Below, piece by piece: positions 1,891-62,792 of a DNA stretch of 64,000 nt (position 1 is its first letter; every line of letters starts with the position of its first letter). The notes under the pieces were generated by a model. It worked only from the letters and a program-made list of their open reading frames with translations. It had not been told where the DNA came from and ran no database searches. The DNA is taken from NCBI GenBank assembly GCA_950106755.1, contig OX467088.1, positions 31,024,401 to 31,088,400 of the forward strand, written 5' to 3'. This DNA comes from Climacium dendroides (lineage: Eukaryota > Streptophyta > Bryopsida > Hypnales > Climaciaceae). A program made the translations under genes and the position numbers.

Positions 1891-2217
1891 CTATAAAGTC
1901 ACACATAGCATCATCAGACTATGATAGTATGAAAATTCCCTAATGAAGATACAATGGTATTTCAAGTAACGTCAGCAGTAGGTTGGGTCAGGTCGACCCG
2001 ACTTGAAGTTGACTCTTGGGCACTCAATGCCACCGGTCAGGTTGAGCCAAACTAAGGAACAACACACTCCAGTCAATGCTACGAGTCAGGTCGACTCGAC
2101 CTGGTTTCTATCACCTTATGATTACAAGAAGAAATACATGTTCATTTTATTCAAGTCGAATCGACCTTAACCATAGCCAAAACATTACATTGTGGAATTA
2201 ATTGTGTTCAGGCTTAC
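1891..2217 (-). other. Intron of element A holding GT-class palindromes
   Basis: The donor GTAAGCC at 2217 follows ...CAAM of the methyltransferase-like exon, and the acceptor TAG lies just before 1890. Inside are palindromes at 1988-2006, 2086-2104 and 2151-2169, with a weak one near 2037. The corresponding intron of element B (48145-48299) holds two CG-class palindromes. Confidence 0.65.
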
Positions 2218-3562
2218 CATCGCAGCACATGTGAACTTCGACCCAGCAAAGAATGACATTACGCTTGCTCTAGGAGCGCAAAATTTCCTCACAAGATTGA
2301 GAAAAAACTCCATCCATAGCTCAGTATTGTTAATCCTAAATTCTAGCTCGTTGTAAGCCCCGGGCCTCGTAAATGTTTCAGTATTGGGAGCATCATAGGA
2401 AGACCTCATTTTCATTGTCCTAGTATTGTTTGGGCTTTGCAGGATGGTCAGATAAATTGGTTCCACTGCCTTCTTGCTTCATGCAGACAAGTCACCGATA
2501 CGCTCATTCGGTGAGGGAATGTAGTTAGAAAAAATCATGGAATACTTCTTCAACGCGGGATTTAGACAGCAATCCCGCGTTTGCTCAGTGAGGTCGGAAC
2601 AAATGAGCACCCACACCGGAATGTCCTCGAGAAGGGGTTGACCCTTTTCTTGGAAGGACTCGACAACTGCAGCGAAGTATGGATCGGCTGGCGTACACTT
2701 AGACTTTGACACCACATTCAGGGTGTAACGCAAGTCCCACACTCCAAGCTTGATGTTCTTGACGTTCTCTACAATGAGCACGCCTCTAGGCCAATTTTGG
2801 TGCGTTTTATACATAACGTCATATGGACGATAGTATGCAGTAGATTTTGGGGGCACAAAATTGTTTCTCTGTTGTAGAAAGACCCGGAAGAACTCAGCCG
2901 CGTACATTGACATCTCCTCAGTGCTCTTCCCCTTTGCTCTTGACTGCTTCGCCTCCATCCAGTATTCGTTCCTTGGCTGCTCTAGCAGCACGTTCATGGT
3001 GGCACTCGTGAAGTTCCAACTTCTTTTGAACTCCCTCCACTTCTCGTGGTTCAGCTCGTTCAAAAAGGACATGAGCCCGAGGCTTGCGTCTAGGGTGTGG
3101 AGCTCCATCTTCACCTTGTGCTTGCGCTTCCTTCTCTCCACTCACTCCCTAGTAGTGTAGCAGCTCTCCTGTACAGCAGAGAGAAGCTTGATTGTGACCT
3201 TTGGGTACTTCTTGTTCTTGCTCCTTGGATTCTGATGTAGAATATGTTTGGCCAGCTCCGACAAGTCATTGAAGGAAAGGTTTCTGAGTACTTTGAAAAA
3301 CTCATGCGTCAGATTCCCTTGCTCGGGCTTCCAAATGGCCTTCTCATTGTACTTCAGTCTAGTATTGGGGTCTATCAACTCCCCATGCGCAGCACTAGAG
3401 ATGACCTCGCTCCACAGGTTGTACACGTCGTCCGGAGCTGTGATTATCTGGAGTTTGTTTCGGATCTCGAGCTTCTCCTTGGCGTCCTTGCCTTTCGCAG
3501 TCTTCTGGGCCTTTAATACATCTAGCAGAGCGAACCGCTTGTACATTGCCGATGAGAATTCC
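2218..3562 (-). pseudogene. Central exon with DNA-methyltransferase-like motifs, element A
   Basis: This is one continuous minus-strand frame from an acceptor (GCGTTGCAG, 3563) to a GTAAGCC donor. It is broken by TGA at 3142-3144, where element B has Trp, and by TGA at 2479-2481. It aligns over its whole length with 46800-48144. The C-terminal half contains ADPYF, then VWVLICSD, then the segment FCAPRASVMSFFAGSKFTCAAM near the end. This order resembles permuted N6/N4 DNA methyltransferases: DPPY motif IV first, then an FxGxG motif I near the C-terminus. The motifs are degenerate (DPYF for DPPY, FAGSK for FAGSG), so catalysis is uncertain. The N-terminal half is helical and unrecognised. Confidence 0.55.
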
Positions 3563-3778
3563 TGCAACGCAATTTTGTATGTCATGGTCAATTTGGAGCT
3601 CTCTATTCAGCTCGGACCAACCTAAACTATACATTTCATTTTCAACGTCAAATGCACCTTTGACGTTCTGCTTACTTTGAACTCTTCATTCATTATCACA
3701 TGAAGAGTATCAAAACATGACCTATTGTGGCTGGAACACTAGGTGGTAGACGACATTCACAGATTAGGTCGACTCGAC
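3563..3778 (-). other. Probable intron of element A starting in a GT-class palindrome
   Basis: The 3' boundary is the acceptor GCGTTGCAG before GAATTC. The 5' boundary is less certain. The best-placed GT is inside the palindrome at 3764-3782 (TCAG, then GTCGAG on the minus strand), in the position of element B's TTTCAG/GTATGT donor at 46676/46677, but it leaves a phase mismatch. Element B's equivalent intron has a CG-class palindrome 13 bases after its donor. Confidence 0.4.
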
Positions 3779-5228
3779 CTGAATTTCTTATCATGAATTT
3801 CTTCTTATTTGCTGTACTCTCAGCGTTTTGCCTAACGTTGGACATTGTCGCTATTGGGGCGGCTTCCTTTGGATTGCGTGGCCTCCCCATTAGTTCCCAC
3901 ACTTTTCTCGCTCCCAGAATGTTTGTTGACCACGAGGGCTTTTGCGCCACGAAGTGGTTGACCCTATTATAGTATGCCGATATGTCGCGTAGTTTTTGGG
4001 CATCTGTGGACCAGACCACGTAGCAATCCCATTGACGAAAGTTCTTGACAATCTCTTCGTCAAGGTTTTGGTCCACCATCATTTTGCTGGCAGTCACACT
4101 GTGCTGCCCATTAATGATGTAGAAGTTGTTTCTTTCAAGTGCTAGCCAATCCTTCGGCTTTGGCTTCTTGAAGCAGTCCACTGGCAAGACACACAATGTT
4201 TGTTTTGTGGACTTATCTGGCATTTCCCAGAGGTATGTCATCATGTCCTCCGCGAGCTTCATCTCATGGCTACGAGTGTTTAAGTCTTCTAGGGCCTTGA
4301 TGAGCTGCTCAATGGAAATTGTCTTTTTATCCTCCAGGCCAAAGATATAGGCGTCAGTGCAGTGCTTCCAATAGGCCTTGTATGCTTCTGCGGACGCAAT
4401 GTAATCGTGCGACTTCTTGGCGTCATAAGGGAGCGGGACCTCAGTTACCGCGGACACAAAACTCAGCTCCCCTAGTAGAACTGCACTAGGGTCTTGCGCT
4501 GCTGCTGCTACTGCTGAGGTTGATGCCAACTTACTTAGCCTGGGAGTTGGTGGAGGAGTTGCGGACTGCTTGGACTTTCTTGTCCCCCGACTTTGTTGGG
4601 TTCCAAGTGTACCCATTGAGCTCTGTCCCTCCACGTTACTTGGAAACTCCTAGGGGACAGTTCTGACAGTCATGTCTTTCTTCTTCAGCTCAAGTTTCGT
4701 CTTCAGAATTGAGAAGTCGTTCATGAGTGTCTTCAGGCGAGAGTATAGGGCCTTCCCCGTTGCCAACTTCCCATCCTTTGTTTTGAAGTAGTTGTGGTCA
4801 ACTTTCTTTTCAAGGTCGGGTATCTCCGTTCTGTACTCAGTCGGTTCCAGCATTGAGAGGAAGTGCGATATGTTGAAGGCACATCTTGAGGAGTCCAAGC
4901 GAATAGTGAAGTGGTACTGCTCGCTTTCAAGATGTCCTGTCACAGCTGTAACACAACGAATTTTCAAGAATGGACCACTGTCGTGGGTGACATCCTTTAT
5001 CTTCTCATCAAATGATATGTTGAAGAAATGGTCCGTGTCTTTAAACTTTGCAGCGAAGCAAATGAGGTTCTTGAATGGAATCATGTGGAGACTCCAACTC
5101 TCAACCTTTTCGAGATTTTTGAATTCCCAGTAGTCTCCGTCATTGTCAAAGTCGTCCCCTTCCTCTCTAGAGGATTCGTGCGCAGAGCGTACGTAGAAGG
5201 CCTCCAACTTCTCGATTTGGTCATCCAT
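3779..5228 (-). pseudogene. N-terminal and ParB-like exon, element A
   Basis: The start is taken as the ATG at 5228 (MDDQIEKLEAFY), because element B starts at the matching MDQHKEALEMYF. Residues 1-190 are a conserved domain I cannot name (EYWEFK-type motif, then QYHFTI, then LEPTEYRTEI). After a low-complexity linker comes a ParB/sulfiredoxin-like domain: LCVLPVD, then NFYIINGQHSVTASK, then CYVVWSTDAQKLRDISAYYN. This matches the family order of V-x-P-V, the G-x-H/R-R loop and an acidic helix. Many such proteins bind or cleave DNA, or bind nucleotide. An in-frame TAG at 4650-4652 separates the two parts, so the copy is probably dead or needs splicing around it. Confidence 0.6.
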
Positions 5229-5284
5229 TCTGCATTCATTTTTCAAACGGGTATTGTTACACCAAGAGTTGTTGCTCTATATAG

Positions 5285-6074
5285 TCAGGTCGATTCGACC
5301 TGAATGTCAGTGCTTGGAACTTCTAGATTTATTTTCTACGTGCTTGATCTAATATAATTCGGTTTGGTTTCCTTTATATGCTTCAGGTCGAGTCGACCTA
5401 AATGCCAATACATGGGGTTATAAGATTTCATCTTCTATGTGTTTCCAATTACTTGCATTTGGTGTACTTGGATTTGGTTCGGTTTGCATCACACGCTTCA
5501 GGTTGAGTCGACCTGAAGTTCTAGTCGAAATAGTTGAATGTTTTTCTTATTATGATGGCATTGTTTAATGTTATCGTAACGTCGTACATGTCATAGTACG
5601 TACTCATCTCACTACTGATCTTACAATTCAGGTCGGTCCGACTTGAATTGCATGCGTTAATTTTGTCAGGTCAATTGTTGTTAGCTAGATGATTATTGGA
5701 AATGTATTTGATGATCAATGTGTTAATAAAAGTAGGTATCTAATATCCTAATATTATTTTATTTGTTGGTACCACAACGTATTTAACGCGTCAGATTGCA
5801 TAGGGTCCCCTTTGCAGTTCAGGTCAGACCGACCTGATCTGTATTTGATTTTGATGATGATGTTATTTCTCTTCTGGGATGTAAGTGCAAATGCCTATTA
5901 CTTAGTTACTTAGTTGTACAGACAATGCTAGTAGGTGTACATTTTAGGTCGGACCGACCTGAAATGCATGTTAATCTCATATCAATATTATTAATGAATT
6001 TGCACGGGCAAAAGCATTGATTTGAGAGTGGATTTGTTTGAAGGGGCTATGCAATTCAGGTCGATGCGACTTGA
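5285..6074. repeat. GT-class palindrome cluster upstream of the ParB gene, element A
   Basis: Seven 19-bp imperfect palindromes of the form TCAGGTCGANTCGACCTGA occur at 5285-5303, 5383-5401, 5498-5516, 5628-5646, 5819-5837, 5944-5962 and 6056-6074. The first lies about 57 bp upstream of the ATG at 5228. The outer TCAG/CTGA and inner CGA/TCG are nearly invariant, while intervening DNA is unremarkable and AT-rich. The position suggests an operator or centromere-like binding array. Confidence 0.85.
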
Positions 6075-6215
6075 ATTGTCGTTGGGTTCATATGACGTAC
6101 ATTTTCCTTACAATTAAGAATTTATTTCGTGGTCAATTTTTTAGATATACTAGGTGTCTTATCTCCTAATAGTAATTTATATGTTAGTACCACAATGTAT
6201 TTGACGAGTCAAAAC
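5731..6215. repeat. 410-bp tandem repeat of element A (unit 1 and start of unit 2)
   Basis: Unit 1 runs from about 5731 to 6140 and contains palindromes at 5819, 5944 and 6056. From about 6141 unit 2 begins (TATCTCCTAATA, ACCACAATGTATTTGAC), and it breaks off near 6215. The rest of unit 2 resumes at about 55805-56110 with palindromes at 55831, 55956 and 56068. The spacings of 125 and 112 bp are identical in both units. Element B and about 130 bp of other sequence therefore lie inside unit 2. Confidence 0.8.
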
Positions 6216-6349
6216 ACAATATTCAATATTTTGAGAGGTTTGGGGTCTCTCATAATAATATTGTCCATTTAGACCTTAACAAATGAATTATAATTTTAGG
6301 CAATTTAGGTGGGCAAACACTGAATTTGCTAGTTGTAATGCGCAATTTC

Positions 6350-6376
6350 CATTAAAATGAGAGTCTTTTGAGTGAT
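6350..6376 (+). repeat. Left terminal inverted repeat of element B
   Basis: CATTAAAATGAGAGT followed by CTTTTGAGTGAT matches the reverse complement of 55765-55791, identical over the first 15 bases and mostly matching to base 27. Confidence 0.55.
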
Positions 6377-7065: not shown

Positions 7066-8122
7066 CTAAAGTGGCGGTTCAGTTTCATCCACTTTCCAAC
7101 GTAGACCTCTTTCACTGTCCCATCCAGTGTAGAAGTCTTGAACGCGTATACAATTAGGTTTCTCCGGATTACAATTTGGATCAGACAACGCCCTTGCAAT
7201 CCAAACCGGATGACTGTCACCATCTGCAGGTCGAACTGCAACAAAATATCCTTCAAAGAGATCTCGACCCACCCTAAAGGATGGTTGTGGGCGACCTCTC
7301 AAAGGGCCTACGTACGCGTCATCTTCTCCAAACTCTTCACGATCCTCGCTGTCTTCGTCTAATTCATCCACTTGAGTTGCTTGAACACGGCTCGTAGGCC
7401 AAAAACCATCCTTCAAAATAGAAGATGAAGGTAGTGGTTCTAGCAATGCTACCTTGACACCTTGCCAGTAGTGCACTACGTGCTCATAGCTTCTTCGGTA
7501 CTCTCCAGTGCGATCTTGATTGCACAAATTCTCCCAATACCTCACGAATCCGGATATGCCCTTCAAGATGTCCTCTGCACCTTTCATTGGACTCGGCAGA
7601 ACTGCTTCTGGTACTCCACGTGGCCACAAACTTTGCCCTTCAAAGTCCTCCTTCCACAATTTCATTCCATGACCAATCCCCTTTAGCAACCACTCCACAT
7701 CAATGCACAGCATTTTGTACTTCATGACTGGACACCCAATCGAGTCAAGGTAGAACTTCACTTGTTGTGGCTTTGTGTGTCCAACCATGATGTCATTGCC
7801 GTCCAAAACTTTGCCTGCTATGAAACCCTTGAAATCTGGCACCTCTTTGATGAGGTGAGGGATTGTTGGAATGGATTCCACATCCATAAACGACTTCATA
7901 AGTGCAGGAATTGTAAGGAAGTTTTCCTTCTTCAAAAGCATACTCCATCTTCCAAAGAGCGCATCAATGTTGTCATGAGTATGACCCACAATCATGAAGT
8001 TCACGTGCACTTCACGAAAGATCTTGTTTGCAACAAGTAGAGACCAGTAACAAAAAACAAATCTGTTTTTGTTATCTCCGGTGGCATTATCCATCTGCAC
8101 ATTCAAAATAGGAGGCAACGGC
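7066..8122 (-). pseudogene. DUF7869-type probable transposase, C-terminal half, element B
   Basis: The minus-strand frame enters from the LTR1 target site and begins PLPPILNVQMDNATGDNKN, followed by FMIVGHTHDNIDALFG. The pair D-N-x(3-4)-D/E-N-K-N and G-H-T-H-x-x-x-D is the hallmark of the DUF7869 family, which is frequent in repeat-rich plant and invertebrate genomes. The spacing of acidic residues resembles RNase-H-fold transposases, but no catalytic role is proven. The tail (about 200 residues) ends KVDETEPPL. LTR1 cuts the gene just upstream of the motif. Reading across the 5-bp target duplication (CPGMP at 11553, then LPPIL here) restores the frame, so the insertion hit a coding exon. Confidence 0.7.
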
Positions 8123-8404
8123 TGTGACAACTCATATTTTTGATTTTTATTTGTTTATCTTTTTGAGTGAATCGGAAATTAGAAATAGGTATCCGGATTC
8201 ATCTAGAGAGAAAGATAAATCCAAAAATAGTCACAAAAGGACCTTACAGAACTAATCCGGTTTTAGGTAGAAGCGGATCGGATTAGATTTCTAACCGGAT
8301 AGTATTTCCAACCGGAATCTCGTTGACCGGATTGGAGAGAACCGGATGTCAAGAACCGGACCGGATATCCGATCGGTCATAAAGACAGTCCAGGGCGTCA
8401 GAAC

Positions 8405-8413
8405 TATATAAAG
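8405..8413 (+). promoter_or_regulatory. TATA box upstream of the LTR1 ORF
   Basis: TATATAAAG lies 312 bp before the ORF start at 8725. LTR2 has the same box near 54309-54317 on the minus strand. It may drive the LTR-internal gene. Confidence 0.45.
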
Positions 8414-8724
8414 CCTGACCCTGCCCATTTTCAGGTCTCTGGATTTCCACGTATTGTCGTGTCCTGATTTAGCGCCTGACGATTCCATCGTTGACCACGG
8501 CAAGGAAGAGGAAGTACAAGAGGGTCCGGAAGTGAGTGAGGGGTGTGAGATGGAGGAATCTCCTCCGGACATGAATGGGTGAGACCTTGAGTGCGAGCGG
8601 ATACGTGAGGGACTGAGAGTGTGAGCACGCTAGTAGGTTAATTTACAGGACGAGCGGAACATCTAAGTGTCGGCGCTCCCTTGTTAGGACTGTAGAAGAG
8701 TGAAAACCGGGTAGAGCTACCCTC

Positions 8725-10404
8725 ATGCCGCGGCTGAACCGGAAGAGAGGTTCTAGCACCCCGCCCCCGAGTGAAGTAAAGCTTAGAAAAGTGATTCCGG
8801 TCATGCCGACCAAGGAACCGGAACAGGGAGAGCTCAGAGAGGATTTATCATTGATGGGTTGTCAGGGGTTAGCTTTGAAACCTTGGGGTTTCAAAGATGA
8901 GAGGATGGTTAAAGAAATCCTGAGTGGCGTATCGAATCAGTTCAATAACACCCTGAGAGGGAATCCGGTCCAATGGACCGAGGCTTTGTGGCGGGACGTG
9001 TACGGATTCCGGCCAGGAAGACTCGGGCTTGCCAACCGGAAGGATGATTTCGTCCAGGGCAAGTTCGGAAGCGTAGTAAACCCGAAAGACGGCTACGCGA
9101 TCGAAGACTGCCTCGATGACCGGGAGCGACGCCTGCTCCAGTTCCTGGTTCCGGTTTTGCATCCGGAAAAGCCCACCAGGGTGATTATCACCTTGGCTAA
9201 CACGATTTTCGGAGCGCTGAGCGAAACCCGGAAAGTAGACTAGGGCCGGATCTTCTTTGATCTGGTGTCCCAGCTTAGTATAAGAGTGGGGAGAAGTAGG
9301 GCTACCCCACTGTGCCCTTATGTGTACCACCTCTACCAGCAACAAGAACTATTGACAGAGGTGGAGCTGAAGGTGTGGAAGGCCCAGGAGCGGACCATGA
9401 AGTACGGAGAATCCGAGTCCGACCAAGAAGCGGATTCCGGAAATGAAACCGAGGAGGAGGAGGAAGAAGAAGAAGAGGAAGAGGAGGAACCGTATGTTCC
9501 CGCCAAGAGGCAGAAGACCACAACGACTCGGAATCGAGGAACGCCCTCGAGACATCCGCGGCCGCGCAGAAGTGAGACTCCAACCGGACCGGATGTGGCA
9601 TCCGGATCGGGAACCGTAGATTCGTTCAACGAGTTGGTTGGGATCCTCTGCGGAATCCGGGCGGATTGGGAAGTTAAGAAGCGGACGCTCGGGGAGATCG
9701 CGGAATTAATCGGAGCAGAACCGGACAGTCAGTTGCCGCGGAAGGTAGCTGAGATTGTTATCAATCCGGATGAGCTCCGGAAGATGAAGGAGGACAACAA
9801 GCGGCAACACGATGAGGTGGACACCCTCAAGGCCGAACTTTTCGCGTTGCTCGAGAACGCCACCGCGACAAAGGAGATGGCGGAGGAAATGAAGAAGTTG
9901 GCCGCAGAAGTGAAGGACGTGCTTGGAGGACCCGGAGCCAAAGTCACCAAGGCGCGCCTGTTCGAAGAAGAGGTGCACAAGGACAAGAAGATATCTGGAA
10001 CTAGGGTGGTGCACATCCTCACCGATGTTGAGGAGCAGATGGAGAAGCTCCTATCCAAGGCACGGGAGTCAGCGGACCGGATTGTGGAGAGCAACCAGAA
10101 GTTAACAGAAGTTCCGGTCTGACTCTCTGAAATTTCTCTTCCGGACTTGTTTCCGGAAGACGTAGCTCAGGAGCCAGGAAAGGATAAGACGCCTCAGTCA
10201 AGTAGGGCGAAGAAGGAGACGCCCTCGACCGGACATCAGCCGATAGATTTGGACTCTCTAGAAGCTAAGGAAGATCATCCGGTTCTACCTACGGATGGGG
10301 AACAGAACCGGAATCTAAATGAGGTCTTCGAGCAGTTGGAGAGACCTGATGAGAGCCCTACCATTGGATCCCGAGTGTATGAGACGGAACAGGAAGGACT
10401 GTAA
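8725..10404 (+). pseudogene. ORF inside LTR1 (coiled-coil protein, two stops)
   Basis: A single frame of about 560 codons starts at ATG 8725 (MPRLNRKRGS) and is interrupted by TAG at 9241-9243, where LTR2 has Trp, and TGA at 10120-10122, where LTR2 has Arg (CGG). Residues 30-220 form a globular domain with LMGCQGL, WGFKDERM and NPVQWTEALWRDVYGFR, also recognisable in LTR3. Then come a poly-Glu tract, a basic KRQK patch, a long heptad-like coiled coil (about 340-460) and an acidic tail. No known catalytic motif is seen. It could be a gag-like or accessory protein, perhaps with its own promoter. Conservation between LTR families suggests past selection. Confidence 0.65.
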
Positions 10405-10520
10405 AAATAGGACTTATAAATAGGAACCGGAATAGAATCCGGTTAGGATAAGGTAGGACCGGTTTGTCAGCGCCTTCAGAGGCGAAAATCATGTATTCAC
10501 TTTTTGCTTTTTGTTTTCTG

Positions 10521-10529
10521 TATATAAAA
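10521..10529 (+). promoter_or_regulatory. Second TATA box in LTR1, downstream of the ORF
   Basis: CTGTATATAAAACAATCTC at 10518-10536 is conserved in LTR2 (minus strand, near 52202-52210). Placed after the internal ORF and about 1 kb before the LTR end, it is a good candidate for the promoter of the genomic retroelement RNA. Confidence 0.45.
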
Positions 10530-11552
10530 CAATCTCTGAGCTGAAGACTAGGAGGAGTTCTTTTGGCATTTCCTTGTGTACTTCCCTTTAAACTAACTTT
10601 TGTGTGATTTTCCCAAGTGTTGGCAAGAGTGCACGGAGTCAGAATAGGAAGGTGAGTACGGAGGTGTTGGTAGAGTTTCTCCCCTTGATGTATGTTTCCG
10701 GTTCTAGGTACATGTGAGTAGGTTATGAAGAGTTAGGAGTGGATTCCAGTGCCTCAACAGCTACAGAAGTTTAGCATTCCGAATAAGAGATCCGTTGATC
10801 AGACTAAGCGGATAGGGAGGGATTCTTTAGCTGCGCTAGAACTCCTGGGTGGGAAATCCGGTCGAGTATCCTGATTCCTGTGAGGTCTTGCCACCGTTGT
10901 GGGTGAACGGAAGAACTTTCGTGGCTGTTGGAACGGACAGATGCACTTGTAGCCACCGAACTTCGTACGGAACGGATCAGTGTCAAGGTCGTTATAGTAT
11001 GAGAGGATCGTACGGGGGGTCTTTGTGTAACCTGTGATTCGGATTGCTATCCAGATTACTCTGAAGGACCAAACCGGATCCGTGTTAGTTAGGGGATTTG
11101 TGGATAAGAAAGTGGGTCTTCAGCCACTATAAGTCACGGAAGGAGTGGTGGGCCTACCACTTTCAAGAGCAAGCGGCGAACCCTCTGATGGTAAAACAGA
11201 GATAAAACTAAACCGGGTACAAAAGGGTGGACCGGATCGGATTAGCCTAGGAGGGTACATAGGACCGGATGTTGCAGGGTCCAGAATTGAGAAGTCAGTC
11301 TAAAAACCGAGGAACTAGTAAAACCGGAAGTAGGATACAGTCCGGTCGAAGCTTTCCGGTTGGTTTTGGATGTTTCGGTCGTCAGAGGTAGAACCGGAAA
11401 AGTAGAATTAAGGGGTTTAATTGAGTTTATCTCCTTGTTAGAGTTAGCTACTTCACAGGATCTCGTGGGTTCGATCTTTAGGGTCATTTTGTTATGCTCT
11501 AGAGTGATTTTTGTGAGTATAATAGGGAAATTGCTTACTCTGTGCTGCGACA

Positions 11553-13181
11553 ACGGCATCCCTGGACATAACATTTCCGGTAGCAGAGGTAGAGATGCTT
11601 CGCAAACTTCGGCACCCTTCAGTATTGCCCTGGATAAATTTGTGGATCCAAACCCCGTAAACAATTGCCGAGAAGACAATTTTGGTGGCAATTTCAAATC
11701 TCACAGCAACTTCGCCATGGAGCCAACAGTGTAGTTTGAATCGTGGGAAAACATATCCAAGCCATAGTGCGCATATCGAACAGATCAGCATGACCATGCG
11801 CAATCATGCCAGTAACTGAGACGGGCAACTTCATGAGCCCATCAAGTTCTTTAGTTTTGTGGGAAAAAACCGGAGAAGCGGTCTTGGCATGGTCCATCTT
11901 GTCATGCATGATCGTCAAACATTCATGTGGAAACTCATGCAAGCAGTAACGATTTGCGTAGTACAGCTCCCTATGTACCCGAGCAATAGCCAAATGTTTG
12001 TCAAGCCTCCTTGACCATATCAAAGCACTTTGAGATCCAGCAATACAACTCCTTCGTAGCTCTTGTAGTTTGTCACACACTGAACACCGAGTAAAATTAT
12101 CACCAGGTTTTTTCACTTCGTACTTTGAAAACTTCGAGGACCTGATCTTGCTCAAGTTTGAAGTGGAAACTTCGGGTAATCCGAAGGCTGCATTGACATC
12201 ATTAATTTCTTTCATCTTACCCTTCCACTGAAAAGTAGAGGGAAGACACATGGAAACAACCTTGTCCCCTCACTTCAAAGTTTGAGTACGATGTGACATG
12301 TGATCTGCCTCCTTTTCAAGGATGCACTTTAGCGTGGCAGTTGCTTATTGAGTGTGCTTTCTCGGCTTCTCCAATCCTACATTTCCATGGTCTCTTGCCT
12401 CTCGTTCGTCCTTCCAATATTTGAGGTATCGATAGAATGTAGCCTCCGGGACCCCAGAAATATGCATCCATGCTCGCATGCACACGTTGATGCCTTCAAC
12501 GGTCATTATCTTCCTCCCATGTGCATCAAGATGCACTGACCTGTGAACATCAGTCTTCATGAGTGACCTAAACTTGAATGATGTATTGGAGTACATTCGC
12601 TCACGGAAGGCCCGAATCTTCTCCTTTGGAAATGGCTGAACGCAATTCTGGAAACAACAGACTTTGCTAGACACCAAGTTGATGCACTCTGGAGTAAGGA
12701 GTTCCTTAGATCTGCGGGAAGTCACGCGAGGTGGATTCCTAAGGATACTTGAATATGGCCGTATAGATGCTAGAGGTTGTGGATTCAAGAGGCGAGCTTG
12801 TAGCTGAGTGAATTTGTCTCGTGCCTCATGGTCGTGAAGACTTGCTCCCGCACAGTGGACTCGTTTAATCGGCCAAGCTACCAAATAGTAAATCTACTCC
12901 TGAGGGATATCCGCTTCTGAGAATGTCTTGGTGATGTGAACTGCTACATGAGTATCTCCAAAAGGACCATTAGCTCCAAGCACGAGGTCTGAGTTGACAC
13001 TATGGCAAGTCCCTTCGCCAACAAGTAGACCCTCCTCATTGTAAAGAGTGACACATCTTGTATTCCAAAGATGACATGGAAGTCCTTCGCATTCAGAAAT
13101 GCCTACATTCATCCCTTCCAAAATTGGGAATTCATCATCTGAGGATTCCATGAAGTCATCAGAAGTCGCAGATGAAGTCAT
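11553..13181 (-). pseudogene. DUF7869-type probable transposase, N-terminal half, element B
   Basis: The start is taken at ATG 13181 (MTSSATSDDF), matching element A's gene at 62865. Recognisable blocks are SECEGLPCHLWNTR, LVLGANGPFGDTHVAVHI, CMRAWMHISGVPEATFYRY and FTRCSVCDKL, a CxxC that may bind zinc. Compared with element A the copy is broken by TAG at 12894-12896 (Gln in A), TAA at 12345-12347 (Gln in A), a TGA near 12272-12274 and an apparent 1-base frameshift near 11775. A short intron with a GTGAG donor near 11703 and a CAG acceptor near 11625 would restore the frame into the GAEVCEAS segment. LTR1 then splits it from the C-terminal half at 7066-8122. Confidence 0.7.
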
Positions 13182-51178: not shown

Positions 51179-54100
51179 TGTCGCAGCACAGAGTAAGCAA
51201 TTTCCCTATTATACTCACAAAAATCACTCTAGAGCATAACAAAATGACCCTAAAGATCGAATCCACGAGATCCTGTGAAGTAGCTAACTCTAACAAGGAG
51301 ATAAACTCAATTAAACCCCTTAATTCCACTTTTCCGGTTCTACCTCTAACGACCGAAACAACCAAAACCAACCGGAAAGCTTCAACCGGACTGTATCCTA
51401 CTTCCGGTTTTACTAGTTCCTCGATTTCTGAACTGACTTCTCAATTCTGGACCCTACAACTCCCGGTCTTATGTATCCTCCTGGGCGGATCCGATCCGGT
51501 CCACCCTTCCGTACCTGGTTTAGTTTTACCTCTGTTTTACCATCAGAGGGTTCGCCACTTGCTTTTGAAAGTGGTAGGCCCACCACTCCTTCCGTGACTT
51601 ATAGTGGCTGAAGACCCACTTTCCTATCCACAGATCCCCTAACTAACACGGATCCGGTTTGGTCCTTCACAATAATCCGGATAGCAATCCGAATCACAGG
51701 TCACACAAAGACCCCCCGTACGATCCTCTCATACTACAACGACCTTGACACTGATCCGTTCCGTATGAAGTTCGGTAGCTACAAGTGCATCTGTCCGTTC
51801 CAACAGCCACGAAAGTTCTTCCGTTCACCCACAACGGTGGCAAGACCTCACAGGAGTCAGGATACTCGACCGGATTTCCCACCCAGGAGTTTTAGCGCAG
51901 CTAAGGAATCCCTCCCTATCCGCCTAGCCTGATCAACGGATTTCTTAACTAGAATGCTAAACTTCTGTAGCTGTTGAGGCACTGGAATCCACTCCTAACT
52001 CTTCATAACCTACTCACATGTACCTAGAACCGGAAACATACATCAAGGGGAGAAACTCTACCAACACCTCCGTACTCACCTTCCTATTCTGACTCCGTGC
52101 ACTCTTGCCAATACTCGGGAAAAATACACAAAAGTTAGTTTAAAAGAAAGTACACAAGGAAATGCCAAAAGAACTCTCTCCCCGTCTCCAGCTTAGAGAC
52201 TGTTTTATATACAAAAAGCAAAAAGTGAATACATGATTTCCGCCTCTAAAGGCGCTGACAAACCGGTCCTACCTTATTCTAACCGAATTCTATTCCGGTT
52301 CCTATCTATAAGTCCTATTTTTACAATCCTTCCTGTTCCGTCTCATACACTCGGGATCCAATGGTAGGGCTCTCATCAGGTCTCTCCAACTGCTCGAAGA
52401 CCTCATTTAGATTCCGGTTCCGTTCCCCATCCGTAGGTAGAGCCGGATGATCTTCCTCAGTTTCCGGGGAGTCTAAATCTATCGGCTGATGTCCGGTCGA
52501 GGGCGTCTCCTTCTTTGTCCTGCTTGACTGGGGCATCTTATCCTTTCTTGGCTCCTGAGCTACGTCTTCCGGAAACAAGTCCGGAAGAGAAATTTCTGAG
52601 AGCCGGACCGGAACTTCTGTCAACTTCTGGCTGCTCTCCACGATCCAATCCGTTGACTCCCGTGCCTTGGATAGGAGCTTCTCCATCTGCTCCTCAAAAT
52701 CGGTGAGGATGTGCACCACCCTGGTTCCGGATATCTTCTTGTCCTTGTGCACCTCCTCTTCGAACAGGCATGCCTTGGTGACTGCGGCTCCGGGCCCCCC
52801 AAGCACGTCCTTCACTTCTGCGGCCAACTTCTTCATTTCCTCCGCCATCTCCTTTGTCGCAGTGGCGTTCTCGAGCAACGCGAAAAGTTCGGCCTTGAGG
52901 GTGTCCACCTCATCGTGTTGCCGCTTGTTGTCCTCCTTCATCTTCCGGAGCTCATCCGGATTGATAACACTCTCAGCTACCTTCCGCGGCAACTGACTGT
53001 CCGGTTCTGCTCCGATTAATTCCGCGATCTCCCCGAGCGTCCGCTTCTTAACTTCCCAATCCGCCCGGATTTCGCAGAGGATCCCAACCAACTCGTCGAA
53101 CGGATCTCCGGTTCCCGATCCGGATGCCACATCCGGTCCGGTTGGAGTCTCACCTCTGCGCGGCCGCGGATGTCCTGGGGGCGTTCCTCGATTCCGAGTC
53201 AGCGTGGTCTTTTGCCTCTTGGCGAGGACATACGGTTCCTCCTCTTCCTCTTCTTCTTCTTCCTCCTCCTCGGTTTCGTTTCCGGAATCCGCTTCTTGGT
53301 CGGACTTGGATTCTCCGTACTTCATGGTCCGCTCCTGGGCCTTCCACACCTTCAGCTCCACCTCCATCAGCAGTTCCTGTTGCTGGTAGAGGTGGTACAC
53401 ATAAGGGCACAGTGGGGTAGCCCTACTTCTCCCCACTCTTGTAGTAAGCTGGGACACCAGATCAAAGAAGATCCGGCCCCAGTCTACTTTCCGGGTTCCG
53501 CTCAGCACTCCGAAAATCGTGTTAGCCAAGGTGATAGTCACCTTGGTGGGCTTTTCCGGATGCAAAACCGGAACCAGGAACTGGAGCAGGCGTCGATCCC
53601 GGTCATCGAGGCAGTCTTCGACCGCGTAGCCGTCCTTCGGGTTTACTACGCTTCCGAACTTGCCCTGGACGAAATCATCCTTCCGGTTGGCAAGCCCGAG
53701 TCCTCCTGGCCGGAATCCGTATATGTCCCGCCACAAAGCCTCGGTCTATTGGACCGGATTCCCTCTCAAGGTGTTATCGAACTGATTCGATACGCCACTC
53801 AGGATTTCTCTAACCATCCTCTCATCTTTGAAACCCCAAGGTTTTAAAGCTAACCCTTGACAACCCATCAACGACAAATCCTCTTTGAGCTCTCCCTGTT
53901 CCGGTTCCTTGGTCGGCATGACCGGAACCACTTTTCTAAGCTTTACTTCACTCGGGGGCGGGGTGTTAGAACCTCTCTTCCGGTTCAGCCACGGCATGAG
54001 GGTAGCTCTACTCGGTTTTCACTCTTCTACAGTCCTAACAAGGGAGCGCCGACACTTAGATGTTCCGCTCCGCCTGTAAACTAACCTACTGGCGTGCTCA

Positions 54101-54601
54101 CACTCTCAGTCTCTCTCGTATTCGCTCGCACTCAAGGTCTCACCCACTCATGTCCGGAGGAGATCTCTTCGTCTCACACCCCTCACTCACTTCCGGACCC
54201 TCTTGTACTTCCTCTTCCTTGCCGTGGTCAACGATGGAAATGTCAGGCGCTAAATCAGGACACGACAACACGTGGAAATCCAGAGACCTGAAAATGGGCA
54301 AGGCCAGGCTTTATATAGTCCTGACGCCCTGGACTGTCTTTATGACCGATCGGATATCCGGTCCGGTTCTTGACATCCGGTTATCTCCTAATCCGGTCAA
54401 CAAGATTCCGGTTGGAAATACTATCCGGTTGTACATCTAATCCGTTCCGCTTTGACCTAAAATCGGATTAGTTCCGTAAGGTCCTTTTGGTGACTATTTT
54501 TGGATTTATTTTTCTCTCTAGATGAATCCGGATACCTATTTCTAATTTCCGGTTTGCTCAAAAAGGTAAACAAATAAAAATAAAAAATATGAGTTGTCAC
54601 A
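51179..54601 (-). mobile_element. LTR2: 3.42 kb solo LTR in reverse orientation
   Basis: On the plus strand it starts TGTCGCAGCA and ends GAGTTGTCACA, the reverse complement of LTR1's ends. It is flanked by CCAAG on both sides (51174-51178 and 54602-54606). Length and sequence are close to LTR1, including both TATA boxes and the ORF. It has no internal region and no second LTR. Confidence 0.85.
52321..53997 (-). pseudogene. ORF inside LTR2 (one stop)
   Basis: The frame starts at ATG 53997 (MPWLNRKRGS) and runs about 559 codons to 52321, with a single in-frame TAG at 53743-53745 where LTR1 has Trp. It has the same parts as the LTR1 ORF: a globular N-terminal domain (WRDIYGFRPG), then VGRSRATPLCPYVYHLYQQQ, a poly-Glu tract, a coiled coil and an acidic tail. 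The best-preserved copy in the window, it shows that LTR1's two stops are changes from Trp and Arg codons. Confidence 0.7.
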
Positions 54602-54606
54602 CCAAG

Positions 54607-55764: not shown

Positions 55765-55791
55765 TTTCACTGGAAAACTCTCATTTTAATG
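55765..55791 (-). repeat. Right terminal inverted repeat of element B
   Basis: ACTCTCATTTTAATG at 55777-55791 is the inverted complement of 6350-6364, and the match extends inward with some mismatches. Confidence 0.55.
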
Positions 55792-55830
55792 AATATTATG
55801 TTTCAAATTGAATAGGGTCTTCTTTGGGAT

Positions 55831-56086
55831 TTAGGTCGGACCGACCTGATCTGCATTTGATGTTAACAATGATGTTATTTCTCGTCTTAGATGTTAGTGC
55901 AATTACCTGCTATTTAGTTGAATCTTCATGCACACAATGTTAGTAGGTGTACATTTCAGGTCGAACCGACCTGAAATGCATGTTAATCTAATCTCAAAAT
56001 TATCCATGAACTAGCACGGACAGAAGCATCGATTTGAGAGACGATATGTTTGAAGGGGCTTTGAAATTCAGGTCGATGCGACCTGA
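55831..56086. repeat. GT-class palindromes of the interrupted repeat unit
   Basis: 19-bp palindromes at 55831-55849, 55956-55974 (TCAGGTCGAACCGACCTGA) and 56068-56086, spaced 125 and 112 bp, exactly as at 5819, 5944 and 6056. Confidence 0.85.
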
Positions 56087-56226
56087 ATTGTACCTTAGTT
56101 CATGTGACATTCATTCTCGATACGTTTAAGGATTTAGAATGACACCCGGGTAGTACCGGGCTAATTCTCGTGAATTTGTGTGGTTGTGGCTGGTCATTTA
56201 TCACTGTGAGATTTTGAATTCTAATT

Positions 56227-56455
56227 CCTAGACCTAAAGCAAACCCTAGACCCTAAGCAATGGACCCTAAACAAACCCTGGATCCTCAACACTGGACCCT
56301 AAACAAACCCTGGATCCTAAGCACTTGACCCTAAACAAATGTGGACCCTAAGTACTGGACCCTAAACAAACCTTGTACCCTAAGCACTGGGCCCTAAACA
56401 AATCTTGACCCTAAGCAATGAATGCCTATTTTTGAACCCTAAACCCTAAATAAAG
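56227..56455 (-). repeat. Telomere-like minisatellite
   Basis: Units of about 35 bp built from CCCTAAAC, CCCTGGAT and CCTAAGCA, ending in AACCCTAAACCCTAAAT. This is a degenerated plant telomere motif. Confidence 0.75.
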
Positions 56456-57339
56456 TCCTGTGCATTAAAACTCACCTGGTAATTGACAAATGAAGACCTT
56501 GAAATGCAATGAAGATGGATTAATCTCCAAATCCTACAAGATTATCCACATTTTCGACAAATTCAGGAGTTGAAAAACGTCAAAACATCAAAAACAGCAA
56601 CATTGCAAACCAAAAGACAACCTAGACCAAAAACCAAAGAGTAATTGTGCAAACCTACAACATCTCAAACAAGCATGCTTCCATTTAGCAACTCCCAAAC
56701 CATGAATTATAACAAAAACCAACAAACCTCAAGAAAACCAAAAAACGCACGTATGCACAAGATACATTCAGCAACTTAAACCCCACTAACACATTCATTG
56801 GACATTGTAGCTAGCTTTACAACAATCACAGAAATCACTATTCAAAGCACAAATGGTGCAAGAGAATTGAAATTAATACATACTTGAGTTTCTACAAGTA
56901 AGCGCTATGCAACTTCACCCGTAGCTGCTTATTATGGACTCCCCAATGTTGTAACTCCAGTGCTATAATCGTCAATCTACAATGCAAAAAACAACCCAAT
57001 TTTTAAAAACTTACATTGCAAACCAAATTCCAAGAAACAAACTACAAATACATTCCAAGCAACGAGATTCATTGCAACAATTAAAAAAAAGATCCAATCT
57101 GTTGGGAGCAAATACCTCCCAACACAATACACAACACAATCGTCACTCAATCAGATCATTCCAACATCAAAAGAAGCAAATTCAAAACTGATTTAAAAAC
57201 AATGTGATTTCATCCTCAATTTTTTGGAATTCAAGACCATTTTTTCACAGAACCCTACATCTGGTACGGCAAGCTTTGAAACTAGGTGCCCAACCAATCT
57301 ACTTATTATTGCAAGGTATTGCAATTCTCCAACACTTTC
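56456..57339. other. AT-rich non-coding stretch of element A
   Basis: Only short, Asn/Gln-rich ORFs appear, typical of AT-rich sequence. No gene seen. Confidence 0.4.
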
Positions 57340-57640
57340 AATCAAGCTCCATTTTCTTAACTTACATACAATATCCACTACTCCAAAATCCATACATCAA
57401 ATGCGTTCACTCAAACCTCCAATACCTGGGTCTCAAAGTTCCATTTTCTAAACTCATATATAATCCACTACTCTCAAAATCCATACATCAAGCGCGTTTA
57501 AACGCTCAAACCTCCAACACTGTAGTCTGAAAGCTCCAACAAATTCATTCAAGCTCCATTTTCTTAACTCATATACAATATCCACTACACCGAAATCCAT
57601 TCATCAAACACGTTCACTCAAACCTTTAAGACCTGCGTCA
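57340..57640 (+). repeat. About 100-bp tandem repeat, three copies
   Basis: Units contain AGCTCCATTTTCTTAACTCA, then AATATCCACTACTC, AAATCCATACATCAA and CACTCAAACCTCCAA, with indels. A fragment recurs near 58170. Confidence 0.75.
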
Positions 57641-58469
57641 CAAAAAACTCTACAGTGTTGACCTAGGGAGAAGGGCTCGCCTATGCTGCGCCATATGAAT
57701 CAAACACATTAACACAGAGAACAGAGTTCACAAAGGATCAAGTGAGGGTGAGAAGAGCTAATGCCTCAAATTGCAAAGCGATCAAGCATCCAGGTGCCCA
57801 AATCATGAAAGACATTTTCATCAAAATACTAAAACTGAACATGATTCCACGAAATACACAACCAAACAGAATCTCCTCAATCGACAACCCCCACAACTCA
57901 TTCAAAACCTTCCATGATAGCCGACAAACCCTAAACCCCAAAAAATCTTGTAGCGTTGATCTACGAAGACGGCCTCGCTAATGTTTTACCGCAGCTCAAT
58001 CCTTTTAAGTCTGTATGAAGTCTTAGTCAATTCTATAGACGTGGACATAGTTGTAGTGTGCAATTGACAGTTTCCGGTACTTATTTTCGTTGCTTCTCGA
58101 GGTATTTCGTATTTTGAGCTTGTTACAGTATGCCAAGAGATTGAGACTTCGACCGGATGAAGGGGTCTGAAAGCTCCATTTCTTAACTCATATACAATTA
58201 CAAAGCGCACCTCAAGGTGAAGGATTACAATTACAAAGCGCACCTCAACCAAGCGCCCTCAGTTGCGTCGCCCGTTGCTGCTACTGCGTCCTCTGCTGCA
58301 TCGCCCACTGTTGTTGCGCCCTCTGCTGTTGCTGCGCCCTCAGCGAGCACTCCAAATTCTACCCTAAACCGCTGTGAGCAAGATCCTCCTCCCTCACAAA
58401 ACAGGAAAACAACAACGACACAGGAAAGCAACAACAACACAACGCTAAACCCTAACCCGCGCCCGATAA
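57641..58469. other. Non-coding stretch with a short duplication
   Basis: ATTACAAAGCGCACCTCAA occurs twice (near 58197 and 58230). An Ala/Ser-rich ORF near 58217-58477 is low-complexity and unsupported. Confidence 0.35.
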
Positions 58470-58860
58470 CCTCCTAAACCTGCCCATGATACCCTTCCTG
58501 TACCCGTCGCCCGAACTAGAGCCCGATACCCTTCTATACCCGCCCACGATACCCTTCTTGTATTCGTCGCCCGAACCAGAGCTCGATACCCTCCTATACC
58601 CGCCCACGACACCCTTCCTGTACCCGCAATGATACCCGCCCTGAACCCTGCTGTATCCGCCACAATACCTTCTTCTACCCGCCATGATACCCTGCTGAAC
58701 CCGCCACGATACCCTCCTAAACCCGGACCAGCCTCGATATGGCCCCAAAACATGGAGACCCACCCCATACCCGCCTCATACCCGCCTCGTACACGTATGA
58801 TACCCGCCTCATACCCGACACACCTTTTACTGAAAATGGACCATGCCTTGTACCCTATCC
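58470..58860 (+). repeat. 60-bp GC-rich minisatellite
   Basis: CGTCGCCCGAAC recurs 60 bp apart (58506, 58566), followed by many decayed units of GATACCC and TACCCGCC. It is GC-rich in an AT-rich setting. Confidence 0.75.
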
Positions 58861-59048
58861 CCCGGCTTATACCAACCCCTATCATGCATACGTAGAAATT
58901 GTATTTTCATACAATGTGATATTACAAAAATAGAGTATCAGTTTCCTATCATACTACTAAAATCATAAATCCCTTTGTAATATCACAAATGCTACCATTA
59001 ATACTAGGGGCTCATGCTTGCTATGCTACGCATTCATTGTATCACATA

Positions 59049-59905
59049 TTAGTAAAGTTTTGATACATTTGAATAGAATGCATGATAATGATTTCAATAA
59101 GTCTTTAAAATAATTATTTTAATTATTTTATAAAAATATTTGCAATCATGCATACATAAAAATTGTATTTTCACACAATGTGATATTATAGAAATAGAAT
59201 AGCAATTTGCAATCACTTCTATAATATCACCTCGAATATCACTTTTTACAAAGGGTGATATTATAAAAATAATATAATTGTTGCAATTCAGGTGATATTA
59301 AAGAGGATCCATAGGGTGATATTATAGAGGTAGCAAATCCATGATTGCTTCTGTTGGCTTTCACTTCTTTGCATTTCTTTGATTTTGTGCTTTTGTGAGC
59401 TTTGAGCTTTCATAATTTCAATTTTCTATTGCTACTACCAAATGATTTGAGAAATTTATTAGATTGAACCAATTGGGTTTCACAACAATTAAATTGTTCA
59501 CGAAGCATTTGAGGTTTACAAGTTCTTTCTTTAAATTCTTCTATTTGGGTTGCCATTGTTTGTAACAATTGAGTCCAAACAATTAGTAAAATTTTGACAC
59601 ATTTGTATAGAATGCATAATAATGATTTCAATAAGTCCTTAAAATAATTATTTTAAATATTTTGTAAAAATATTTTCAATCATGCTTACATAGAAATTGT
59701 ATTTTTACACAATTTGATATTACATAAATAGAGTAGCAGTTTGCAATCACTTTTGTAATATCACTTTTTACAAAGGGTGATATTATAGATATAATATAGT
59801 TGTTGAAATTAAGGTGATATTAAAGAGGATCCATAGAATGATATTATAGAGGTAGCAAATCCATTGCTTCTCTTGGCTTTACACTTCTTTGCATTTCTAT
59901 GATTT
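59049..59905 (+). repeat. About 530-bp direct duplication with GATATTA motifs
   Basis: TAGTAAARTTTTGAYACATTT at 59049 and 59583 starts two similar blocks. Both contain ATGATTTCAATAAGTC, TGTGATATTA and GGATCCATAG. Inverted GATATTA/TAATATC pairs are frequent. Confidence 0.7.
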
Positions 59906-60189
59906 TGTTCTATTGTGAGTTGTGAGTTTTCATGATTTCAATCTTCTATTGCTACTACTAAATAATTTTGAGAAATTCATTCAATTGAAGTGATTTTGGA
60001 TTCCAAAACAATTAAGTTGTTCACAAAGTTTTTGAGATTTTTATTTGAAGATTTATTTGAAAGTTTTACATAAAAATTCTTATAAAATTCTAATGATGAA
60101 TGCATAGCATAGCAAGCGCCAACCCATTTCTTGCTCTGCATTTTATCTAATACATAAAAATTCTAATGAAATTTTGAGGATAAATGCAT

Positions 60190-61000
60190 CGGGTAGGATT
60201 CATTGAAAAAATTATTTTAAAAGAACCCTATTGCTTTCCTACACTTTTTCAATTGAAATGGATTTCAAAACAAATACTCTAAAAATCATACTGTATTTAA
60301 TACAAACCAAACCAATAAATTATATCAGTTTGACGTGGAAGCATGTCCAAAAACGTAACACACAAGTTGCAAATGTTCGAAATAATTAGGATTCATGGAA
60401 AAATTAATTTTAAGAGGACCCTATTGCTTCCCCACACTTTTTCAAATGGGTTTCCAAAAAAATACTTTAGGATTGATGCTATATTTTACTCTAAACCAAA
60501 CCATTAATTTATATCGATTTGACGTGGAAGCCTGTCCGAAAACATAACACACAAGTTGAAAATGTTCGAAATAATTAGGATTCATGGAAAAAATTAATTT
60601 TAAGAGAACCCTATTGCTTCCCCACACTTTTTCAAATGGGTTTCCAAAAAAATACTTTAGGATTGATGCTGTATTTTACTCTAAACCAAACCATTAATTT
60701 ATATCGGTTTGACGTGGAAGCCTGTCCGAAAACATAACACACAAGTTGAAAATGTTCGAAATAATTAGGATTCATGGAAAAAATTAATTTTAAGAGAACC
60801 CTATTGCTTCCCTACACTTTTCCAAATGGGTTTCCAAAAAAATACTTTAGGATTGATGTTGTATTTAATACAAACCAAACCATTAATTTGTATCGGTTTG
60901 ACGTGGAAACATGTCCAAAAACATAACACACAAATTGCAAATCTTCAAAATAATTAGGATTCATGGAGAAATTAATTAGGATTCATGGAGAAATTAATTT
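60190..61000 (+). repeat. 189-bp tandem repeat, about four copies
   Basis: AATAATTAGGATTCATGG recurs at 60381, 60570, 60760 and 60949 (189, 190, 189 bp). Each unit holds CCCTATTGCTTCC, AAACCAAACCATTAATTT and GTTTGACGTGGAA. Confidence 0.95.
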
Positions 61001-61147
61001 TGCGAACATTATAAAAAGAAATTGAAAGTGCAAACAGTATAATTCCTGAGTGTGTACAAAAACCTTGAATTCACTTTTAAATTAAATATTTGTTCAATAT
61101 TTTAAAAACATGATATGAAATGATTTAGTAAACTACAAAAATACCTA

Positions 61148-61222
61148 AATCCCAGACCCTAAACCCTAAAGACCCTAAACCCTGAAAACCCTAAACCCTA
61201 AAGACCTTAAACCCTAAATTGT
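61148..61222 (-). repeat. Interstitial telomere-like repeat
   Basis: About eight units of CCCTAAA with AGAC or GAAAA interruptions. Confidence 0.75.
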
Positions 61223-62160
61223 AAAACCTTTATTGATAAAATCACATGCAAACAATTGGGTGGTGCAAAAGGTTGTGTTTGTCTAAATTTACAAACAGAC
61301 CCTAACTTCACCAAAATCAAATTGACTTCCAGAAATTGCAAAAGAAAAAAAGACAATGAAGACTTCTTGCCTAGATTCTATTAGAAATAGAATCTACAAA
61401 TTAGTGCTTCACGGTGCAAGAAAGCAACCTCATAAGTACTTAATAGCTATCAATGGCTATTTCTGTGATGAACAGTGTAGGTGGGAATCAAAACCCAAAG
61501 GAATTTGCGGAAGGAGTTCGGGATTTTCAAATTCTTTCCTACAACTCCCGCCTTCCCATTCGCGCCTACACATTGCTGCCAAAATTGTTTTGAATGTCAT
61601 TGCGTCCGCGCACATTAGGGCACTCTCCTTCTCCGTCGCGAATGCATGGACGTTCATGCGAGATTTCGCTTCTCTCATGTCATTACTAAACTCTATCAAC
61701 TTCTGTACTTCTACTATCTAGAGTGTCGGAGTATTGCGCTTCGAGGATCTCGGTGAACGTGCTTTTTGCCTTCCGTATGTCCTCAAGTTAGAAGCCTTCA
61801 ACATTTTCAAACATTTTCATTCAATGGATTGCACATAGTTACTTTGTAAGCACATAGTAGTTTTGTAAGTGTGTATAATGTTTCTTTCAGCGCTGCCATC
61901 TATTGTCGAGTTCCTAGTTGCTGAAGTTGGCAAAGTGCGTGTGTTTCCAATGTTTATTATCGAAAATTGAGTTGCATGATTATGAGTTCTGGACTTCCTC
62001 AATTTTTAGTGACAAGGTCTGTATTCAATGTTCAGTTCTCGACACCTGAGTTGTAGAATTCTGAGAATACAGCGCCTGATTATCTCACCGAGAAACCCGG
62101 AATGCGAGATCACAGTTACTACGAGACTGCCAACACAGTGTTCGAGAAATCCGGAACTGT
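61223..62160. other. Non-coding stretch of element A
   Basis: An ORF at 61356-61721 (121 codons) shows no family motif and is not supported. Nothing else is seen. Confidence 0.35.
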
Positions 62161-62792
62161 TTAGGTCGAGACGACCTGAATACGAAGTACGGTACATGAA
62201 TAATTTGTTAATGCACTTCAGGTCCAGTCGACCTGAATGTGAGATTGTCTACATTAGTAATTTCGTTCAAGTGAAAAAATCTTGTAGATGTCCTTCTGAC
62301 ATTCCCGATATTCACAGATTTAGTTACGAAGAATTTTGTTCGTAGTGATAATAGTGTGCAGATGGGATTCGGCTCACTATATGCCCTGATTTCAGGTCAG
62401 TTCGACCTGAAGTGTGGGTACACCCAGCATAGACCTCAGTTAGAGAAGTTCGAGATTTTCTTAGGAATAAAATAGGGGTTTTCCGTCTGAACAGATGAAG
62501 ATGGGTTCATTCTCTCAGAGTACAAGGGATACTTCAGGTCGATCCGAGCTGAAGTTCAGGATTGTACTTAGATTTCTTACGTTTATATTTTTAGTTATCG
62601 AAAAGTAGACAAGGCAGGGGTCAGGTACTTTAGGTCGATTCGAGCTGAAAACAGAGTTTACATATATTTGAATTCATAAGGAATTTTAATGAATGATGTC
62701 AATTGCAGTTGAAACCTAGGCTTCAGCAAATAGGTTCGTTGGTGTCATAGATGTAGCTATAACATTTGATCATTCAGGTCGGGTCGACCTGA
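62161..62792. repeat. GT-class palindrome cluster upstream of the DUF7869 gene, element A
   Basis: 19-bp palindromes at 62161, 62218, 62392, 62534, 62630 and 62774 (TCAGGTCGGGTCGACCTGA). The last lies 73 bp before the ATG at 62865. Two copies (62534, 62630) share GAGCTGA in the right half. Confidence 0.85.

Follow-up and report, generated by a model that had tools for sequence, protein, structure and literature searches.

How do two related mobile elements, one lying inside the other, come to carry palindromes of one build in different spellings, and which protein might read them? The question is raised by a window (the whole stretch of DNA analysed) of 64 kb from the moss Climacium dendroides, with a G+C content of 42.5%. 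A preliminary description of this locus proposed a two-class code of 19-mers, TCAG-nn-CGA-N-TCG-nn-CTGA, in which nn is GT in the outer element A and CG in the inner element B.

Two colinear elements and their palindromes

Element A occupies positions 1-6349 and 55792-64000 of the window, and is interrupted by element B (6350-55791). B begins on the forward strand with the terminal inverted repeat CATTAAAATGAGAGT (6350-6364), which has a 15-bp inverted match at the other end (55777-55791, reverse strand); no clear target-site duplication was seen around B. Judged by sequence, A and B are colinear relatives. Their common order is phosphatase-like, gene 4, MTase-like, ParB-fold, and N-domain, with the DUF7869 gene divergent.

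In A, the reverse strand carries a fragment of a NIF/CTD-phosphatase-like exon (3-227; 63% identity over 75 residues to B 49760-50452), the low-complexity ORF of the gene 4 exon (836-1876; start aligned to the B exon at 48249), the MTase-like exon of gene 3 in two ORFs (2389-3606; 38-49% to B 46797-47888), and an exon encoding the N-domain and ParB fold in a single frame with an in-frame stop at 4650-4652 (3699-5276), whose database relative P0001 is one ORF of 507 aa. The 5' part of A's DUF7869 gene lies on the forward strand (62799-64000; 62% to B 13160-12411), and the window ends inside it. Some database homologues of this gene carry PF25273, and a Physcomitrium patens protein is related to the DUF7869 protein at 47% identity. 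In B, the DUF7869 gene (7069-13307, reverse strand) is interrupted by an LTR-like insert of 3.4 kb (8123-11552); its ORF at 7069-8154 matches PF25273 at E 1.8e-33, the mark of a DUF7869 element. The forward strand of B encodes the N-domain ORF, conserved from about 23545, with the first part of the ParB fold (23428-24841; 38% and 51% to A), the remainder of the ParB exon (46485-46679; 49% to A), an MTase-like exon colinear with gene 3 of A (46797-48008), the gene 4 exon, with its start aligned to that of A (48249-49298), and a NIF/CTD-phosphatase-like exon (49760-50452; PF03031, E 1.8e-14). GT...AG boundaries at the edges of conserved blocks predict an intron between the MTase-like exon and gene 4 in both elements, and another between the ParB and MTase-like exons in B.

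B has been enlarged by later insertions, namely the LTR-like inserts and a CACTA-like element. The latter, 21.6 kb long (24842-46484), breaks the ParB exon and encodes Transposase_21, DUF4218, a SET-domain ORF (30444-30986), and a weak second NIF-like ORF (43891-44703). This CACTA transposase, CCCTAAA-type repeats elsewhere in the window, and the Physcomitrium patens relative of the DUF7869 protein suggest a plant source, perhaps a bryophyte. Numerous AGTCATATTTT repeats within the CACTA-like insertion form another repeat code of the window. The 3.4-kb sequence, which starts with TGTGACAACTC and has a long ORF related to 17155-17871, is present in B as two inverted copies (8123-11552 and 51179-54601; 94.5% identical), perhaps LTR-type insertions.

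At up to three mismatches to the class consensus, A has 20 GT-class sites (at 1988-6074, 55831-56086, and 62161-62792) and B has 18 CG-class sites (at 13308-50700), in agreement with the 20 and about 18 counted previously, while six first-order Markov sequences yielded no site of either class. Only four matches to the generic 19-mer in the window are free of mismatches. The half-sites of A are 38 GT and 2 CT; those of B are 26 CG, 3 TG, 3 CT, 2 AG, and 2 CA, with the CT halves divided among three sites. Both halves read alike in 18 of the 20 sites of A but in only 9 of the 18 of B. The earlier statement that neither class crosses into the other element stands for all 38 sites, among which there is no CG half in A and no GT half in B, but not for lone half-sites, as two unpaired perfect GT half-sites lie within B's interval, at 13243 and, in an inserted element, at 34807.

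The sites are not scattered over the elements. They adjoin each coding block common to A and B, either ahead of a gene or in the gap between two blocks. In A, seven occupy the promoter of the N-domain/ParB gene (5285-6074), three a duplicated promoter block (55831-56086; 81% identical to 5791-6124), and six the region upstream of the DUF7869 gene (62161-62792); three more (1988, 2086, and 2151; 1988-2169) are in the predicted intron between the MTase-like exon and gene 4, and one (3764-3782) is directly beyond the stretch of the ParB exon that is conserved. In B, seven sites (13308, 13605, 13692, 13742, 13827, 13943, and 14090; 13308-14108), partly within repeat units of ~87 bp, lie upstream of the DUF7869 gene, five (22841-23492) in the promoter and leader of the N-domain/ParB gene, and two (48165-48248) in the predicted intron between the MTase-like exon and gene 4. 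A CG/CA site (49326-49344) separates gene 4 from the phosphatase exon, two mixed sites (CG/CT and CT/CA) are at 50614-50700, and a single site (46690-46708) begins about 13 nt past a predicted splice donor. This last site and the one at 3764 in A hold aligned places after the ParB exon and differ in class. Sites 3764 in A and 23474 in B, the latter before the conserved start, are in open frames outside conserved coding sequence. The exception, in both place and class, is a CT/CT palindrome at 870-888 in A, inside the gene 4 ORF as called. Separately, the promoter of A contains duplicated site-bearing units of ~420 bp (5701-6211 and 55788-56136), and B is situated inside the second.

Spellings of the site across the genome

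Throughout the genome (412.6 Mb in 123 contigs), the exact generic word occurs 1,235 times and its reversed control not once. GT/GT accounts for 505 of these sites and CT/CT for 160, the remaining 570 being CG/CG and unequal halves together. CT/CT is, therefore, a further class, also represented by 870-888 in A, and with at least three inner spellings and an outer variant (described below) the notion of two classes is too narrow. Of the first 50 sites listed, 35 have a ParB or DUF7869 match from the lists no more than 15 kb away, a zone covering 2.9% of the sequence concerned. The other 15 have no ParB or DUF7869 within 15 kb among the matches listed, and ten of them form two clusters. All nine multi-site clusters (gaps of up to 20 kb) among these first 50 sites are pure by main class, which none of 20,000 label shuffles equalled; under the rule used (any GT half counts as GT, otherwise any CG half as CG, otherwise CT) mixed sites are hidden.

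For 50 listed exact CT sites, the nearest match within 3 kb is a DUF7869 of 80-90% identity in 27 cases, a ParB of 52-57% in six, and a DUF7869 of 91% or more in none, and 17 have no listed match. CT sites were found in five of six regions read, which had been picked for containing listed sites, and they lie upstream of the DUF7869 gene, as in A and B. Outside the moss genome, no relative of the A-type ParB was found in viral contigs, where matches to the generic pattern in 17 stretches were taken as background.

Families were assembled with the ParB parts of A and B as queries. The A query gave at least 127 matches (125 of 1,013 candidates scored), with 30 loci read including A itself; the B query gave at least 150 (150 of 940 candidates scored), with 25 loci read including B itself, and this set was enlarged by 13 loci hand-picked from weaker matches. 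At up to two mismatches, the 30 A-family loci contain 157 sites of the GT class and none of the CG class; in 27 B-type loci the counts are 116 for CG and zero for GT. The A-family half-sites (n=476) comprise 419 GT, 31 AT, 18 CT, 8 TA, and no CG, and 57 of the 238 sites have unequal halves. B-type loci have CG along with TG, CA, and AG variants. One CG-type family is mostly TTAG...CTAA, with altered outer bases. Searched with the TTAG-CG core, the loci matching the B query at 63-70% have sites in nine of nine cases (up to four mismatches); 105 of 114 halves carry T at -8, and perfect TTAGCGCGANTCGCGCTAA palindromes occur in this group. At up to two mismatches the generic site is absent from five loci (L079, L084, L089, L090, and L091); looser matches are present in L084 and L089. 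Perfect symmetric variants were also seen, TTAGCACGACTCGTGCTAA in L086 and TTAGCGTGAGTCACGCTAA in L083, and P0005, a protein from the databases, hints at an AT/AT class.

Position tallies, made by searching every family for the core of its own class with up to four mismatches allowed, locate the differences. At -4 there is T in 478 of 486 A-family halves, G in 259 of 268 B-family halves, and T in 61 of 64 CT halves; at -5 there is G in 420 of 486, C in 245 of 268, and C in 46 of 64, respectively. The outer and inner bases had been described as identical between the elements, with only one dinucleotide switched. This is not the case: position -10 mostly carries T in the A family (408 of 486 halves) but A in the B family (217 of 268), the two families differ again at -1, and -8 varies as well. 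The palindrome continues outward to CA at -13/-12, for a total length of about 27 bp. CT is a single base change per half-site away from both GT and CG, so class switches could be stepwise. Counts with the CT core on GT and CG sites were discarded, since a perfect site of either class is trivially two mismatches from it.

Constraint on the sites within the A family appears weak. Across 29 A copies, sites are nominally less variable than other noncoding DNA in all five base contexts (for example, 0.078 versus 0.131 in CHG and 0.053 versus 0.073 in CG); the overall gap is small (0.050 versus 0.054), coding variation is 0.029, and four of nine consensus sites are more variable than their own 40-nt flanks. 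C>T and G>A changes, the share a deamination account concerns, make up 98 of 207 changes among site variants in B and 188 of 513 in A.

The protein that the class seems to follow

Site class is linked to the lineage of the ParB-fold protein. A tree of the ParB domain was built from 38 rows (23 hand-picked from this genome and 15 from databases, intron residues excluded), with classes of the database rows, where given, taken from translated introns and six of the 38 rows unlabelled. On this tree the class changes six times, compared with 17.7 in shuffles. CG forms one clade (100/99), as does A-type GT (98/92), and CG, TTAG-CG, and two CT rows together form another (100/98); support for TTAG-CG by itself is weak (83/59). 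Three changes are needed for GT and three for CT, and GT may thus be old. The translated introns are those of several database proteins that read through a splice donor, in which the site is legible as SGRxDL for GT and SARxAL for CG. A scan of 139 proteins for such translated sites gave 18 hits at up to one mismatch versus about five in shuffled proteins; at two mismatches there was no excess (63 versus 74.6 in the null), and hence class labels of that kind rest on the fixed position after the donor. The intron residues of P0013 and P0014 fit CT better than CG, and the tree uses CT. A database-only tree with a single class change was rejected as too tidy, having counted these two as CG.

The preliminary description expected sites that diverged with the proteins of their own element, an expectation that the purity of clusters and the ParB tree bear out. 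Its view of the DUF7869 protein as an equal partner is not supported, because elements with a DUF7869 85-90% identical to that of the CG-class B can be of the CT class. Head-to-head DUF7869 genes at this identity accompany 11 of 43 ParB hits of 52-57% (A-family hits are among the 43), and in these 11 pairs the ParB part is just 54-56% identical to that of B. CT sites lie between the two genes in three of the 11, which are those on contigs covered by the CT list. B-type ParB hits, by comparison, have a head-to-head DUF7869 at 86-100% in 41 of 75 cases, 35 of them at 91% or more. In the 60-70% ParB group, one of 32 hits has a listed DUF7869 partner, at 66%; it belongs to a TTAG-CG element, which shares CG.

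Two CT loci, L048 and L051, were compared with B more closely. By blastn, on which this promoter comparison rests, they match 1,598 bp of B's DUF7869 gene at 87% DNA identity, and the similarity stops where the conserved coding block of that gene starts. Upstream there are only matches of 15-27 nt, the best of them at palindrome 13827. With a closely related DUF7869 and a different class, ParB, and promoter in such elements, it seems that class travels with the ORF1 (ParB/MTase) module and its promoters rather than with the DUF7869 coding sequence. Simple linkage within one recombined block would yield the same pattern.

Candidate readers and related systems

The data show the sites, their purity of class in the loci read, their position next to the shared coding blocks, and the linkage of class to ParB lineage; that a protein binds them, whether it activates or represses, and through which domain, we infer. 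On balance, it is fairly probable that the palindromes are operators for a dimeric protein encoded by the element, a regulator or anti-silencing factor, with the ParB-fold protein as the likeliest candidate. A symmetric, dimeric regulator encoded by the transposon would bind the palindromes, and these operators would control the element's genes jointly, by activation or anti-silencing as with VANC, or by repression as with KorB. The likeliest reader would be the module of PH-like N-domain, ParB/Srx fold, and MTase-like part; it is with the lineage of this module that the class goes. The -5/-4 dinucleotide (GT, CT, or CG) and the outer bases at -8 and -10 would set specificity, each family would control its own copies and not those of neighbouring families, and CT, as a step between GT and CG, would make stepwise switching possible.

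The sites could instead be passive, a repeat spread by tandem duplication and gene conversion in which class only marks descent. The ~87-bp units of B, the 57-bp site spacing in GT elements, and the weak constraint within the A family all agree with this, but the promoters of B and the two CT loci are dissimilar save for short matches, the best of them at a palindrome, one intron site has kept its place and changed class, and sites vary less than noncoding DNA of the same context, so that we regard passivity as unlikely. Binding by the DUF7869 protein, a putative transposase, would resemble that of transposases to internal repeats of their own element, and this protein is element-encoded with sites upstream of its gene in A, in B, and in those CT regions that were read. 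It is nevertheless at least as unlikely, given that B and CT elements differ in class despite DUF7869 proteins 85-90% identical, that the TTAG-CG element shares CG with a DUF7869 merely 66% identical, and that the sites are 6,958 and 5,091 bp from the ends of B, counting an insert of about 3.4 kb on either side, and not near the termini.

Promoter sites would suit a host transcription or silencing factor as well as an element protein, whose binding we likewise infer. Several family-specific classes coexist in one host, however, each tracking an element-encoded module, which makes a single host factor hard to invoke and this reading rather improbable. Lowest of all is the probability that the palindromes work as RNA, as hairpins in introns or leaders affecting splicing or small RNAs: several sites do follow shortly after predicted donors, yet many precede genes by as much as about 1 kb, and a palindrome of odd length, built around one central base, looks like the target of a dimer rather than like a looped hairpin.

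An operator system of this kind has partial precedents. In the VANDAL elements of Arabidopsis, VANC proteins are anti-silencing factors that carry DUF1985/DUF287, and their motifs of 8-9 nt are arrayed in one orientation (PMC5735166). The likeness lies in element-encoded proteins, in family-specific short motifs dense in the noncoding DNA (intergenic regions and introns) of an element's own copies, in motif classes a few bases apart between related families, and in spread by tandem repeats. Here the sites are palindromes of ~19-27 bp, in contrast to the short VANC motifs, and the element is of the DUF7869 type. No DUF1985/DUF287 was found with Pfam in 30 ORFs of the window (E<=0.1) or eight homologues (E<=1).

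KorB of plasmid RK2 is a ParB-fold protein whose operators (OB) precede promoters on the plasmid itself (PMC11790492). The ParB fold and operators upstream of the element's own promoters recall both KorB/OB and ParB/parS; the difference is that we are dealing with a nuclear plant transposon in which the ParB fold adjoins an MTase-like part. KorB structures are among the fold matches of the protein, which has the ParB/Srx N-terminal fold, and the motif INGQHS is present in its alignment. Proteins of the ParB/KorB superfamily bind CTP as sliding clamps and grip their palindrome with a central helix-turn-helix; here the region after the fold is predicted as a low-confidence helix. Searches of PDB sequences gave nothing useful. 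Membership in the ParB superfamily holds for the fold only. On its domains the protein does not belong with VANC, and by analogy its way of working may be VANC/VANDAL-like or KorB/OB-like.

Relatives of the MTase-like exon (2389-3606 and 46797-48008) terminate in FAGGKFTCAAM and contain a DxPY-like stretch; the motif of MTA1/METTL3-like DNA amino-methyltransferases is DPPY. This suggests a degenerate DNA amino-methyltransferase adjoining the ParB fold. Some phage proteins have a DNA amino-methyltransferase next to a ParB fold. A further observation concerns positions 15054866-15151312 of contig C3 (G000), where four B-type ParB/DUF7869 pairs with equal identities are spaced by exactly 29,031 bp, either a tandem array or an assembly repeat.

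TnpA of Spm/CACTA is an element-encoded protein that acts on repeated subterminal motifs in regulation and demethylation. In the reading proposed here, an element-encoded protein on repeated motifs would be shared with it; the sites of B are not subterminal, being 5.1-7.0 kb from the ends with inserts included. The titles and abstracts searched contain no description of this element, and no paper of the library searched mentions DUF7869.

It is tempting to speculate, with considerably less confidence than in the operators themselves, that these elements are a large undescribed group of plant DNA transposons with a KorB-like system. A ParB-fold/MTase-like protein would recognise multi-copy palindromic operators throughout its own genome, with a private, evolving spelling in each family (GT, CT, CG, TTAG-CG, and perhaps AT), and whole promoters would be swapped along with the protein at recombination. 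With more than a thousand exact sites, variously spelled and next to the genes that they may serve, a single genome allows a DNA-binding protein and its sites to be studied while specificity changes in both, and CT is a possible living intermediate of GT and CG. If the ParB-fold protein is the reader, ParB-type operator systems would extend to nuclear transposons, and family-private self-regulation as in VANDAL/VANC would gain a second example of independent origin.
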